Virus record (IMG/VR): IMGVR_UViG_3300032134_000003
Location: 1-58,320 of that record
Direction: 5' to 3' (one strand)
From: a virus
DNA: 58,320 nucleotides
A program made the position numbers and the translations under genes. The first letter of the stretch is position 1. Each line of letters opens with the position of its first letter. The notes under the pieces are model-generated. The model was not told where the DNA came from, did no database searches, and saw only the letters and a program-made list of their open reading frames with translations. Positions 19,524-39,854 of this stretch are shown here, piece by piece.

Positions 19524-19544
19524 GGACTAATAGGGGCTATCAAA

Positions 19545-19602
19545 ACCTGTGACACGCTGACTGTTAATCAGCGGGTCACAGGTCAGAGTCCTGTCGCCGG
19601 AG
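19545..19602 (+). other. 3' half of a tRNA-Asn(GTT)-like gene within a long hairpin, putative attP
   Basis: Bases 19556-19602 match the 3' part of a tRNA in order: anticodon stem GCTGA/TCAGC with loop CTGTTAA (anticodon GTT, 19563-19565), five-base variable loop, T stem ACAGG/CCTGT with seven-base loop TCAGAGT, acceptor strand CGCCGGA and discriminator G. No matching 5' half (D arm, TCCGGCG acceptor strand) precedes it, there is no CCA, and the T loop lacks the usual TTC. It therefore cannot be a working tRNA. Phage attachment sites often carry exactly such a 3' tRNA segment. The 5' flank ACCTGTGAC (19545-19553) is complementary to GTCACAGGT (19575-19583), making a 15-bp hairpin with one A/G mismatch. 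On the minus strand this hairpin is followed by TTTT, so it could also end leftward transcripts. Confidence 0.7.
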
Positions 19603-19617
19603 CTTGAGAAAACCAAG

Positions 19618-19649
19618 GCCCTGCAACCTTTTCTGGGTTGTGGGGCTTT
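19618..19649 (+). terminator. Hairpin with short T tract, weak terminator
   Basis: GCCCTGCAACC (19618-19628) pairs with GGTTGTGGGGC (19636-19646), 11 bp with two G/T pairs, around a seven-base loop and followed by TTT. It is one of four hairpins in the 385-bp gene-free junction after the primase gene. Confidence 0.45.
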
Positions 19650-19686
19650 GTGTTGTCCAGCGACTAGGCAGTGCTGGGACTCACTC

Positions 19687-19718
19687 CACCTAAAATTATT
19701 CTTAGGTGAGACATTTTT
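19687..19718 (+). terminator. Hairpin CACCTAA/TTAGGTG followed by a T run, possible terminator
   Basis: CACCTAA (19687-19693) pairs with TTAGGTG (19702-19708), and a five-T run follows eight bases later. The spacing to the T run is loose, so this is a weak candidate. From about 19720 to 19850 I see nothing else recognisable. Confidence 0.35.
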
Positions 19719-19851
19719 CCACAGTGTGTGTCCTGTGTGTCCCGTGCCCCCGGTCAGGGCCGCTTGACGGGGGGCGACCGCTGGAATACATTGTGTCCAT
19801 ACTACATGACCTCCTCCTTGTAGTATTAGATGTGGATTGGGTCTACGTCTC

Positions 19852-19887
19852 CCGCCGTCAGCGTGCTTCGCGCTGGCGGCGGTTTTT
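19852..19887 (+). terminator. Strong rho-independent terminator for the primase unit
   Basis: The stem CCGCCGTCAGCG (19852-19863) and CGCTGGCGGCGG (19871-19882) is 12 bp with one T/G pair, with loop TGCTTCG and then TTTTT. It ends rightward transcription from rusA and the primase gene just before the converging leftward unit, whose last gene stops at 19909. Confidence 0.88.
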
Positions 19888-19908
19888 GTGAGGGTGTATC
19901 GCATTGTA

Positions 19909-20376
19909 TCACTCATTAGTGTCTTCCTTTTCCCATGCCCTCACCTTCCTAGAGTAGACGCTTTGGGGATGGGTGAACAGCTTGCGGGCGTCTCCGGTCA
20001 CGACGAACACCGTGTTCCGACGAGCGACTTCTTGGTCGATAAACTTAGGCAGATACTTGCCGTCTAGTGGGTGACGCTTGGCGTTTGGATCGACGTAGGC
20101 TACCCACGCCACGCCCCTATCTTTATCTGACTCAGCGTGAAGCACCGCCCCGGTCCTATCGGGCCTGTGCTCTACGCCACGGCCAATCCCTCTGCGCCAC
20201 CCGCACAAGAACTCCCGGCACGACTCAGGGCGATCCTCGTAGATGCCGCACCCACTGGGCGTCAGGTGGACGCAAGGCACCCCGTTGGGTTTGTCCAACT
20301 CAGGCACCGCCATCGCCGTGCAACACAGAGTGCAAGCTCCGCACTTCCTGTCATTACCCATTAAGTCATTACCCAT
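19909..20376 (-). CDS. CxxCxxCC (YkgJ-like) metal-chelating protein (155 aa)
   Basis: The sequence CGACTLCC at the N-terminus is the CxxCxxCC signature of the zinc/iron-chelating YkgJ family. Further cysteines follow in CGIYEDRPESCREFLCGW, as is typical of the family. The C-terminal 90 residues are without recognisable motifs. The role in phage is unknown; metal binding is the only safe statement. A 15-base tandem duplication at the 5' end gives two possible ATG starts (20376 and 20361), so the protein begins with a repeated MGND. It is the last gene of the leftward accessory unit. Confidence 0.75.
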   Translation of the reverse strand: MGNDLMGNDRKCGACTLCCTAMAVPELDKPNGVPCVHLTPSGCGIYEDRPESCREFLCGWRRGIGRGVEHRPDRTGAVLHAESDKDRGVAWVAYVDPNAKRHPLDGKYLPKFIDQEVARRNTVFVVTGDARKLFTHPQSVYSRKVRAWEKEDTNE

Positions 20377-29486: not shown

Positions 29487-30350
29487 TTAGCGGTCCGTGA
29501 GCTTGGGACGCGCTTCGCGGATGGAGAATTCCGAATCTCTAGCTTCGTCTAAGAACTTCCGGATGATCGTATTGTCACTGGCGAGGCGGGACTTACAGAT
29601 CTCTACGGCCCCCTGAGCGGCTAAGAAAACCTCGCCGCTAGGTAGGAGGTGTATAACGACCTCGACATCCTCGGTCTTTCCCTTGGGGCCGAAGGTGGTG
29701 GTGGTGTATTCTTCCTTCTTGCCATCCACCTCACGAGTCTCGACTAGATGGGTCGATGCATAGTCCTCGCCCATCAGCCGACGCCGCCCATCCTCCGCGA
29801 TGCCTACGGCGACTTTCATGGTGCTCTGCGCCGCTCGCGTACGCAACGGATTGGACAGTATGTGACAGAGTTCTGTCCAGTTGAGTCCGTCGGCTCCCTT
29901 GACCTTGGCTCTGGCGTAGGCATCACGGGCCAGTGCCGGATCCAGCTTGATGCACTCGACGGTATTTTCAAGGACGCTCCTTCTCATCCGGATACCTTTC
30001 GTCGAGTTCTTCTTGGCGTCACTCAGGCTCAGTGACGGAGCCCTACCGACGCCTTCGGCCGCCGCCGCCGTCTGCTCTGAGTGGAGGGCTACGACCTTGC
30101 GCTCGGCACCATCCTTGGCCGCCTCAAAGTCGAACTCAATGTCATCACGCATCCGTTTCGTGTCCTTGAGGACGCTGGGCGGGGCGTTGGTCCAGGCGAT
30201 GCCCAGATCCACGAAGTACTCCGCGCTCTTGCGGTCGGCTTCATTCTTCTCGCCGGTTCGCATGGTGGCTTCGGCTACGCCTGTGACGTAGGCCTGGACC
30301 GCCTTCGCTCGGGCCGCGACGTACTCAGCGACTGTTGCTCGTCCTGACAT
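29487..30350 (-). CDS. Unknown protein beside the structured non-coding region (287 aa)
   Basis: ATG 30350 has GGAGA seven bases upstream. An in-frame extension back to 30596 runs through hairpin-rich DNA and was rejected. The protein begins with an Ala-rich helical region (VAEYVAARAKAVQAYVTGVA), has a central basic helical stretch (KKNSTKGIRMRRSVLEN) and a C-terminal beta-rich part (VEVVIHLLPSGEVFLAAQGA). No family is recognised. If transcription starts upstream of 30.9 kb on the minus strand, the structured region would be its 5' leader. It and the 29204 gene are the only leftward genes between terS and TerL. Confidence 0.65.
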   Translation of the reverse strand: MSGRATVAEYVAARAKAVQAYVTGVAEATMRTGEKNEADRKSAEYFVDLGIAWTNAPPSVLKDTKRMRDDIEFDFEAAKDGAERKVVALHSEQTAAAAEGVGRAPSLSLSDAKKNSTKGIRMRRSVLENTVECIKLDPALARDAYARAKVKGADGLNWTELCHILSNPLRTRAAQSTMKVAVGIAEDGRRRLMGEDYASTHLVETREVDGKKEEYTTTTFGPKGKTEDVEVVIHLLPSGEVFLAAQGAVEICKSRLASDNTIIRKFLDEARDSEFSIREARPKLTDR

Positions 30351-30369
30351 GATACGTTCTCCTGGTAAT

Positions 30370-30912
30370 GAGCAGACATTGCTGCTCGGGTTCAGCACGT
30401 TTCGTAGGTGTGCTGTTGTATCCCCCTTCCTTTTGTCTGGGTGGCGCTCACAAGCAGAGTCCTGGCGGCCACTGAAATCTGTATGACCAACGGGAAAGAT
30501 TTCAGGGGGCGTCAGGCGACACTTGTGTTCATTTCTGGCTTGCCAGGAAATGACAGCGCCGGGTCCCCAGACAAATACATTCTGGGATACACACACTCAG
30601 AACCCACGCAGACACTAGCGTGCGTGGGTTCTGACGCTCAGTCCTGGGCAGCTTGTTTCCTCTGGAAGCCAACTGGGTGGGCTGTTTGGGTCAGTTGCGG
30701 GAAATGCGGGAATCCCGATCTTGATCGGTTGACCGCATTTGGCTGACAGTAGGCTCGGATTCGGGAATCCCAATCGGTTCCGTGACCGATTGGTTGACCG
30801 TATCCGGGCCTTAGGGAGCAAACAAGCTGTTGATTCGCAATTTAAAGGCGCGGAGCTACAACCGCGCCTGTGGATTCGCGGAGCTACAACCGCGAATCCG
30901 TCCTGCGAATCA
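30370..30912 (+). ncRNA. Candidate large structured non-coding RNA
   Basis: About 540 bases contain a dense series of hairpins and no credible gene. They are at 30370-30387, 30393-30415, 30472-30505 (CTGAAATCT/AGATTTCAG), 30518-30529, 30530-30552 (loop CTTG), 30566-30586, 30599-30632 (11 bp), 30702-30740, 30757-30805 and a three-way junction at 30831-30912. The 30702 and 30757 hairpins keep the internal loop GAATC/TTGA while stems differ. The two arms of the junction keep the loop AGCTACAA on different stems. That is the covariation expected of a functional RNA. The strand is uncertain; I favour plus because CTTG tetraloops recur in that sense. Phages are known to encode large ornate RNAs (GOLLD, ROOL), but I cannot match this to either. 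Confidence 0.55.
30599..30632. promoter_or_regulatory. Strong 11-bp hairpin AGAACCCACGC/GCGTGGGTTCT
   Basis: A perfect 11-bp inverted repeat around a 12-base loop, with no T run on either side. It is the longest uninterrupted stem in the structured region. Confidence 0.75.
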
Positions 30913-31107
30913 TGTCCCAGGAGGCGTCGAAAAGAGCCCTTGCACCATTCGTTCCGCGACGAGAGGGGGGTGAGGGGGACCCCCCCTGCTGGAGGTTTGA
31001 GGTTGTCTACACTATAAACAGTGTTTTGCTCAAACGGTGGCCCAATTTTAAACTCTACCACTTCTTCCCACGAGCCATTGCGCTTCAGAACTGATTCTTC
31101 GTGGCAG

Positions 31108-31230
31108 TCTAATATCTAGATTGAATACCTAGCTAGATTATTATTTTAGGTTACTAGGCTAGATTATCTAGACTAGATTATTTAGTCTAGATTACCTAGT
31201 CTATATTATCTATATAGATAATTAGGATAG
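31108..31230. repeat. AT-rich tract with CTAGATTA repeats before TerL
   Basis: CTAGATT starts at 31116, 31133, 31159, 31173 and 31187, the last three 14 bases apart, with further CTAG at 31129, 31154, 31168 and 31196. CTAG is usually rare in bacterial and phage DNA, so the density is notable. The tract is strongly AT-rich in a genome of roughly half G+C. It lies between the structured region and the late genes, so it may be an origin with iterons, a late-promoter region or a terminase-binding site. The 195 bases before it (30913-31107) contain a G6/C6 hairpin near 30964-30987 and a small ACACT/AGTGT hairpin near 31010 but no gene. Confidence 0.75.
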
Positions 31231-31241
31231 AAAGCTTCTAG

Positions 31242-31415
31242 ATGCTTGGGGGGACGGCGGTGCCAAAGGGGATGAGTTTGGCCAAGGCGAGTGCGTTAAC
31301 GTTGCTACTGGGTGCATCGACCCTGGTGGCTCTGCGCTATGCGGCCAAGTATGGTTGGCTGGCAGGCACAACGCACTGGATGACGTACAAACACAGAGGG
31401 CGTGGATGGCCGTAG
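31242..31415 (+). CDS. Possible small membrane protein overlapping the TerL start (57 aa)
   Basis: The open frame from ATG 31242 has one hydrophobic segment (SALTLLLGASTLVALRYAAK) followed by a basic tail, and its stop falls ten bases into the likely TerL gene. The ribosome-binding site is weak. It would be the first gene of the late unit. Coupled translation is plausible, but I cannot exclude a chance ORF. Confidence 0.35.
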   Translation: MLGGTAVPKGMSLAKASALTLLLGASTLVALRYAAKYGWLAGTTHWMTYKHRGRGWP

Positions 31416-32899
31416 ACATCGCAGAGATCACGAAACAACTAAACTCCATTTCGCCACACAGCCGAAAAGAGATCTTAGTTCTTCTGAACGAGTTGTCGGA
31501 AGCCAAGCAAAGGATTGACGCTCAGAACGACTTCCTGACGTTCGTTAGAAAAATGTGGCCCGCATTCATTGAGGGCAGTCATCACAAAGTCATGGCCGAT
31601 GCTTTCAATCGCATAGCGGATGGCAGCTTGAAGCGACTGATAGTGAATATGCCTCCCCGCCACACAAAATCAGAATTCGCATCTAACTTATTCCCAGCCT
31701 GGTATCTCGGTAGGTATCCGGACAAAAAGGTTATCCAGACTGCCCACACAGCAGAGTTGGCAGTTGGATTTGGGCGGAAGGTTCGTAATCTCGTGGGGTC
31801 CCATGGTTATAAGAAAATATTCACCGACGTATCTCTAAGTTCGGACTCTAAGGCGGCAGGTCGTTGGGACACCAATAAGCGTGGAGAATACTTCGCTATT
31901 GGCGTAGGCGGTGCCGTCACGGGTAAGGGTGCTGATATTCTTATCGTGGATGATCCGCATTCTGAGCAGGAAGCTGCGCTCAAGGACCCCTCAGTGTATG
32001 ATCGAACGTATGAATGGTATACGTCCGGTCCCCGGCAGAGGCTCCAGCCCGGAGGTGCGATCTGCTTGGTGATGACTCGGTGGTCAAAACGGGATCTGAC
32101 TGGCAGTATTATTAAAGCATCCATAGAGAGAGGTGGCGCAGACGAGTGGGAGGTTATTGAGTTTCCCGCAATCCTGCCCAGCGGGAAGTCGCTGTGGCCT
32201 GGGTTCTGGCCGATAGAGCAGCTTGAGTCGTTGAAAGCAGAACTGCCCATATCCAAGTGGAGTGCCCAGTACCAGCAGGATCCGACTTCTGAGGAAGGCG
32301 CGATCATTAAGCGTGAGTGGTGGAATGAGTGGACGGAAAAAGATCCACCTCAGTGTGATTTCGTGATTCAATCGTGGGACACCGCGTTTCTTGCAAAAGA
32401 AACCGCCGACTACAGCGCGTGTACGACCTGGGGTGTATTCACGAACAGCAAGGACGAGCCAAACATTATCCTACTAGATGCGATACAGGAGCGTCTGGAG
32501 TTTCCTGACCTGAAGGCCCGCGCCTATGAAGTCTGGAAAGAGTACAAGCCGGATGCGTTTATCGTGGAAGCAAAAGCTGCTGGCACCCCATTAATATTTG
32601 AACTCAGGAGAATGGGAATCCCGGTTGCGGAGTACACCCCCAGCCGTGGCAAGGATAAGATTGCTAGGACAAATGCGATTTCTGATATATTTTCTTCCGG
32701 GCTCGTGTGGGCACCCAAGAAAAGATGGGCCGAGGCGGTCATCGAAGAATTCGCCTCATTCCCAAATGGTGATCATGACGATCTCGTAGACTCATCTACA
32801 CAAGCACTGTTGCGGTTTCGGCAGGGTGGCTTTATTTCGATCAAGAGTGATGAGCCGATGGAAGAGTTTTTCCCAGCCCGCAAAGCAGACTATTATTGA
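31406..32899 (+). CDS. terL: Terminase large subunit (497 aa)
   Basis: I chose ATG 31406 (AGAGGG upstream); an in-frame start at 31355 is possible. The ATPase domain has a Walker A-like PPRHTKSE, then VIQTAHTAELA and Walker B ILIVDDPHSEQEA. The C-terminal RNase H-like nuclease shows SWDTAF, IVEAKAAG and GDHDDLVDSSTQALL, carrying the acidic metal ligands. This motor cuts and pumps DNA into the prohead. The family with PPRHTKSE-type Walker A is widespread in marine podoviruses and siphoviruses. It begins the structural unit, with the portal gene 22 bases downstream. Confidence 0.95.
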   Translation: MAVDIAEITKQLNSISPHSRKEILVLLNELSEAKQRIDAQNDFLTFVRKMWPAFIEGSHHKVMADAFNRIADGSLKRLIVNMPPRHTKSEFASNLFPAWYLGRYPDKKVIQTAHTAELAVGFGRKVRNLVGSHGYKKIFTDVSLSSDSKAAGRWDTNKRGEYFAIGVGGAVTGKGADILIVDDPHSEQEAALKDPSVYDRTYEWYTSGPRQRLQPGGAICLVMTRWSKRDLTGSIIKASIERGGADEWEVIEFPAILPSGKSLWPGFWPIEQLESLKAELPISKWSAQYQQDPTSEEGAIIKREWWNEWTEKDPPQCDFVIQSWDTAFLAKETADYSACTTWGVFTNSKDEPNIILLDAIQERLEFPDLKARAYEVWKEYKPDAFIVEAKAAGTPLIFELRRMGIPVAEYTPSRGKDKIARTNAISDIFSSGLVWAPKKRWAEAVIEEFASFPNGDHDDLVDSSTQALLRFRQGGFISIKSDEPMEEFFPARKADYY

Positions 32900-39237: not shown

Positions 39238-39280
39238 GGGACGGTCCCGTATTGGGGCCGTTCCTGCCTCTTCTTTTCCC
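39238..39280 (+). terminator. Terminator behind the capsid gene
   Basis: GGGACGGTCCC (39238-39248) and GGGGCCGTTCC (39254-39264) pair over 11 bp with two G/T pairs around a five-base loop, followed by a pyrimidine tract rich in T. A second small hairpin (CTATCAAT/ATTGATAG) ends at 39302. It probably gives partial termination, raising capsid mRNA over downstream genes. Confidence 0.75.
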
Positions 39281-39326
39281 TGACTATCAATTTATTGATA
39301 GACACTAGCCACGACAGGAGAAACTA

Positions 39327-39854
39327 ATGGCTAACACAACTTTTTCAGGTCCAGTACGGTCGGAAAACGGATTCCAATCCGTTGATAGGAGCGGCACAAC
39401 TGGTGCCATTACTACTAGGGTGGTTCTAGGTAAGGGTGTCGGACACGCTTCAGGCGTTACGGTTAATACCACAGCAGGCGATAGCTCCGCTATCGGTGAG
39501 TTTACCCAGCCAGCCAACACTGTCATCACCGCAATCAAAATTGTGTGTATCACCGCTCCGGTTATCGGAACGGGAGACATTGGGCTTGAGGTTGGAACAT
39601 CAAGTTCCGGTGCCCAGATTGTTGCGGCGATCACCGATCATATCCTAGACGGCGGCACGACTGTCGTTGTTGGCAATGTCGTAGATTGCACACTGGTAGG
39701 CACAACGCATAGTGGTACTACGGCTCCGGTATCGCCTCAGTACACTGGTTCCGAGCGGACGGTTTACTGCAATATTACAAACACTGTAGATGCTACCACT
39801 GCGGGATCGTTCACATTCATTATCGAATATGTTACGACTGCGTCGCTGTCCTAA
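39327..39854 (+). CDS. Beta-rich structural protein (175 aa)
   Basis: This Ser/Thr/Val/Gly-rich protein without Cys clusters has strands such as NTVITAIKIVCITAPVIGTG and a C-terminal FTFIIEYVTTASLS. ATG 39327 has GGAG upstream. The location between capsid and adaptor genes suggests a head-associated or head-completion protein. The family is not recognised with certainty. Confidence 0.6.
   Translation: MANTTFSGPVRSENGFQSVDRSGTTGAITTRVVLGKGVGHASGVTVNTTAGDSSAIGEFTQPANTVITAIKIVCITAPVIGTGDIGLEVGTSSSGAQIVAAITDHILDGGTTVVVGNVVDCTLVGTTHSGTTAPVSPQYTGSERTVYCNITNTVDATTAGSFTFIIEYVTTASLS

Follow-up and report, generated by a model that had tools for sequence, protein, structure and literature searches.

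A candidate hypervariable locus for large structured RNAs upstream of the terminase gene in related phages

The gap upstream of the gene for the terminase large subunit (TerL) in the window (the whole stretch of viral DNA that was analysed, 58,320 nt, IMGVR_UViG_3300032134_000003, positions 1 to 58,320, to which all coordinates refer unless a relative is named) folds far beyond chance, and among related phages the contents of this gap have been exchanged and hairpin modules within them swapped and duplicated; these observations are well supported. We propose that this gap holds one of the alleles of a hypervariable locus, which would encode a large modular structured non-coding RNA. The part of this proposal that concerns a structured RNA at an exchanged locus very probably holds. 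The complete proposal, an exchanged modular RNA that is likely transcribed rightward and serves as a decoy or sponge, is put forward tentatively and could well prove wrong.

The preliminary description of this DNA had reported a hairpin-dense interval, positions 30370-30912, with no credible coding frame, and both points were borne out. On the plus strand, the sequence 30360-30940 has a folding energy of -284.7 kcal/mol, against -210.6 +/- 6.6 for shuffled sequences (z -11.2), and on the minus strand one of -262.9 kcal/mol (z -11.1); none of 100 shuffles on either strand was as stable as the native sequence, and more than ten helices lie in 30370-30912. When the whole window was scanned by 300-nt folds, two strong outliers only were observed, this interval and 19.4-20.1 kb. 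The ORFs inside the interval (30408-30746 on the plus and 30615-31061 on the minus strand) have no PHROG match and were considered chance ORFs. One part of the interval is shared with the relative L018, and the two lengths, 152 and 159, are 7 nt apart; therefore, no reading frame is preserved.

The predicted plus-strand fold opens with a 5' hairpin, which is followed by domain A, hairpin B and domains C and D (Table 1). In the energy fold, hairpin C1 takes a different form in the full-length context than alone. Recurrent CTTG tetraloops, earlier taken to favour a rightward reading, were found in two clear cases (30539-30542, and in C1 near 30717), which by themselves are weak evidence for a strand. 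The borders of the cassette and the examples given were picked by eye.

Table 1 Coordinates of the predicted cassette, its parts and its flanks in the window
Feature	Position	Strand	Basis
Leftward gene, 287 aa, left flank of the cassette	29487..30350	-	
Putative hypervariable structured-RNA cassette (whole allele)	about 30361..30990	+	unrelated to the cassette of L005; fold z -11
Domain A, three-way junction closed by the stem GTATCCC/GGGATAC	30418..30590	+	fold
Domain A, P1	30432-30441/30566-30575	+	fold
Domain A, P2, long arm with swappable tip	30449..30527	+	
P2 tip motif AATCTGTATGACC-N3-GGGAAAGAT	30476-30499	+	
Domain A, P3, hairpin with CTTG loop	30529..30553	+	
Hairpin B, 14 perfect pairs	30597..30634	+	
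Domain C, outer stem and paralogous hairpins C1 and C2	30649..30829	+	
Hairpins C1 / C2, common internal loop GAATC/TTGA	30702-30740 / 30751-30811	+	
Domain D, outer stem and tandem hairpins D1 and D2	30832..30911	+	
Hairpins D1 / D2, identical loop AGCTACAA	30846-30869 / 30872-30899	+	
G/C-rich stem (GGGGG..CCCCC), right edge in most alleles	30963..30990	+	sequence
Conserved right flank, AAACAGTGTTTTGCTC block and AT-rich TAGATTATCTAG repeats	31016..31235	.	
57-aa ORF overlapping the TerL start, next rightward start after the cassette	31242..31415	+	no family match
TerL, right-hand anchor of the locus	31406..32899	+	phrog_38, E 2.8e-104

The leftward gene starts with an ATG at 30350 beside a purine-rich ribosome-binding site. 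Its fast-evolving product has no family match, and the confident AlphaFold model (mean pLDDT 89.8) found no confident match in Foldseek / VIA-align comparison, which does not in itself imply a new fold. The G/C-rich stem at the right edge is also present in L005, L019, L025, L023 and L028. A promoter search gave no candidate that stands out. The TAGATTATCTAG-like AT-rich array (31110-31235) is kept upstream of TerL in relatives and may serve as an origin, for packaging or as a set of regulatory sites.

For comparison we used TerL relatives of the window, which provide few alleles, several of them on contig fragments. The right block is present in many of these relatives and the window's cassette is absent from them. 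The closest relative, L005, is 95.3% identical to the window in the left gene, 97.3% in the right block and 98.9% in terL, and the cassettes of the two are unrelated; that of L005 is mainly a single rod-like hairpin of about 420 nt (z about -20). Conversely, L007 and L005 are 96.5% identical in the cassette, 87.4% in terL and 77.1% in the right block, and L009 and L047 are 97.0% identical in the common part of the cassette and 58.8% in the left genes. Further, mostly unrelated cassettes occur in L013, L018, L019, L021 and L028, with fold z of -6 to -13; folding is weaker in L047 (z -4.4) and L009 (z -2.5). L025-L027 retain TerL and the right block, and their gap is short and has little or no structure, its folding having been tested for L025 and L026. 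The gaps upstream of more distant TerL relatives mostly fold unremarkably, with scattered moderate values. This pattern of flanks and cassettes points to a fixed slot whose contents are traded between backbones and are lacking in some phages. L018 alone has an intact gene for tRNA-Asn (GTT) in the stretch from the cassette to TerL (3759-3831 of L018, minus strand). No similar DNA was found in phage and plasmid collections, and no such locus in the open-access literature.

Exchange and duplication were also observed at the level of single hairpins. The chassis of domain A recurs in L018 at 88-93% identity with the tip of P2 replaced, and in P3 of this relative one G-C pair has become A-U by a double change, with the CTTG loop retained. 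The tip motif of the window is also found at the end of the L005/L007 rod, which is otherwise unrelated, and there the stem shows two compensatory differences. Compared with L009, the L047 cassette lacks one arm and has in its place a duplicate of the adjoining hairpin type, GGCGACTATC...GAAGGAG. The cassette of L028 (1855-2385) holds five hairpins that are related to one another, of the type GGTCTCTAGTTAGAGACC and with the core CTAGTTAG, some of them with compensatory stem changes, and this core is also found in the cassettes of L019 and L021.

Pattern scans of the viral collection with the tip motif and two parts of domain A gave credible matches at the cassette locus only. Three of the six tip-motif matches (L085, L086 and L088) were set aside as chance, because ORFs cover the sites in L085 and L086 and none of the three forms a comparable hairpin. 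A 16-mer scan with the end of domain A gave 31 matches, and the rest of the element was found only in L090, the contig of L018; a scan with the C hairpin pattern gave two matches, L145 and L146. No further copies of the cassette were found elsewhere in the window. The absence of dispersed copies, in the window and of the scanned modules in the viral collection, argues against a dispersed mobile element, and REP/MITE-like mobile palindromes were rejected on these grounds.

To judge pairing, we compared the rods of L005 and L007, which differ by 15 substitutions: one compensatory change, four tolerated single changes and four broken pairs were counted. Since 8.8 broken pairs were expected (P 0.0016), the pairing in these two alleles is under selection. 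Between D1 and D2 of the window there are two compensatory pairs, at outer positions, and no broken one, against 3.3 expected from random placement of the same changes (P 0.006). The comparison of C1 with C2, one compensatory and one broken pair, is not significant.

The strand was addressed by several measures. A raw excess of G-U pairs on the plus strand at first seemed decisive and was dropped, for dinucleotide shuffles show an equal excess because the plus strand is rich in G+T. It was replaced by a strand-neutral search for stems, in which G.T and A.C oppositions were counted. The ratios G.T:A.C were 20:3 in L005, 10:2 in L021, 10:4 in L019, 4:1 in the window and, reversed, 2:5 in L018. 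Summed over nine cassettes, leaving out L007 as allelic to L005, they reached 64:26, where composition would predict about 51.5 (z about 2.7), an excess that owes much to L005. The energy difference of the plus over the minus strand exceeded that of shuffles in L005 (z -4.5) and L007 (z -5.0) and equalled it in the window allele alone. The pooled bias of G.U over A.C and the energy difference of L005/L007 favour an RNA in the sense of TerL, a reading that is moderately supported. The rightward reading advanced earlier gains from the pooled cassettes and from L005/L007 rather than from the window allele alone.

It had also been suggested that the element is related to GOLLD or ROOL. This was not supported, as Rfam gave no match for the interval even at E<=10 and the GOLLD and ROOL models gave none at gathering score in the window or in 11 relatives. 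The Rfam model of the phi29-type packaging RNA did not match either. Because no Rfam family matches, we did not file the element under GOLLD, ROOL or pRNA; weak Rfam matches to miRNA precursors merely mirror a long hairpin. The alleles are unrelated to one another in both sequence and fold, whereas GOLLD and ROOL conserve both across their members. The putative cassette RNA resembles GOLLD, a large structured phage RNA of unknown function. In GOLLD, however, the 5' region is less conserved and the 3' region universally conserved (PMC12286853), and the latter has no counterpart in the cassettes, whose overall folds differ. It shares with ROOL a size of about 600 nt, a phage origin and many helices, but ROOL has a conserved fold and is usually found close to tRNA islands (PMC12286853). 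The cabRNA of staphylococcal phages, a structured RNA that comes from the terminase region, measures about 400 nt and is sensed by CBASS, likewise has forms in different phages that are non-homologous in sequence (PMC10686824). It derives from the terS/terL coding sequence and is a CBASS trigger, whereas the cassette is intergenic, TerL starting at 31406, and far more structured.

Other known systems were compared too. A CsrA sponge of the CsrB/RsmY type was rejected, the ANGGA count for the window being 1 against 2.2 in shuffles and the other cassettes showing no clear enrichment. An antisense RNA of the P4 CI / P1 c4 type was rejected as well, for 12-mer antisense matches to the own genome were no commoner than in shuffles and there were none of 13, a scale at which short or imperfect pairing would escape. 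No reverse transcriptase domain, as would adjoin a retron ncRNA, was found among the larger window ORFs scanned.

The preliminary description had left the choice between a non-coding RNA and an elaborate leader. What stands of this is a large structured element beyond chance, by the z-scores, the selection on pairing in L005/L007 and the compensation in D1/D2. That it is transcribed, and whether as a free RNA or as a leader, we infer; most likely transcription would run rightward and yield either a free RNA or a late-operon leader that is processed. Recombination within the conserved flanks would move alleles from phage to phage, and inside the alleles hairpin arms that bear recurrent loop motifs are swapped and duplicated. 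The repeated hairpin and loop motifs may capture, or imitate, the ligands of host proteins that bind or sense RNA, and hosts may drive the turnover of alleles. Such a function as decoy or sponge for host factors is conceivable, and we hold it a little more loosely than the proposal at large. The weak structure of L009, the reversed ratio of L018 and the outcome of the promoter search count against the proposal as a whole.

The main rival is a cis-acting leader of the late operon with TerL, where the RNA, while being made, would govern elongation, antitermination or the stability of the mRNA; only bulk structure would matter, so that sequence drifts and swaps freely. The cassette lies just upstream of TerL in the same sense, and there is a precedent in the putRNA of HK022, a structured phage transcript in the sense of the downstream operon that is able to act on RNA polymerase (PMC9378689). 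The put element belongs to early transcripts (PMC9378689), whereas the cassette comprises hundreds of hypervariable nucleotides upstream of late genes. L025-L027 do with a short, little-structured gap before the same TerL and right block, and recurring, duplicated loop modules would not be expected if bulk structure alone mattered. We regard this leader as unlikely, if by no means negligible. Exchange of alleles, swaps of tips and duplication of loops would fit a changing partner better than a simple leader.

The remaining explanations are less likely still. A 5' leader regulating the leftward gene, transcribed from the conserved right block, could draw on the good folding of the minus strand (z -11) and on the fact that the cassettes adjoining this gene family are all structured except the weak one of L009. 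The stem oppositions favour the plus strand, though, and L028 has a structured cassette without the leftward gene family; the gene and the cassette are not co-inherited, which weakens the gene as a specific partner. We consider this reading improbable, and slightly more so a site acting as DNA, with hairpins or cruciforms for replication, initiation of packaging or recombination. Such a site would agree with folding of both strands and with the adjoining terminase and AT-rich repeats, which resemble an origin or packaging site. Conserved machinery, however, predicts a conserved site, whereas the cassette is replaced between flanks 97% identical and nearly absent in L025-L027, and a bias of G.T over A.C in stems is unexpected for DNA. 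Functionless, decaying inverted duplications from replication slippage are the least probable, as the duplicated hairpins and greatly differing allele lengths that suggest them are outweighed by the purifying selection on L005/L007 pairing and the lack of dispersed copies in the window and of the scanned modules elsewhere in the viral collection.

The discovery of GOLLD and ROOL rested on conserved sequence and fold, visible to covariance searches. The present locus suggests that strongly structured RNAs can hold their place while sequence and architecture turn over, and such RNAs would therefore escape family searches. A large structured phage RNA is of a known kind; an exchanged locus for such RNAs has a real chance of being a separate kind. 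With the same reserve as for our whole proposal, we suggest that this may be a dedicated hypervariable phage RNA locus, a fixed slot where large structured RNAs without kinship in sequence or overall fold, assembled from exchangeable and duplicated hairpin modules, replace one another by recombination. If so, it would be to RNA what the variable tail-fibre or anti-defence loci are to protein, and, should the RNA serve as a shield or decoy, the arms race between phage and host would reach exchangeable RNA modules. The set of alleles offers a direct route to tests of function by cassette swapping.

The window has further candidate RNA features. The second hairpin-dense gap, 19524-19930, folds at -196 on the plus and -154 on the minus strand, a difference beyond that of shuffles (z -3.8); it ends in a strong terminator-like stem, and its sequence varies among relatives as well. 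A tRNA search of the window found none, and this gap contains a stretch like a decayed tRNA-Asn, with the anticodon-arm-like CTGACTGTTAATCAG. A Mu-gpT-DE RNA motif (RF03012, 55.2 bits) was found at 39278-39329, immediately downstream of the gene for the major head protein.
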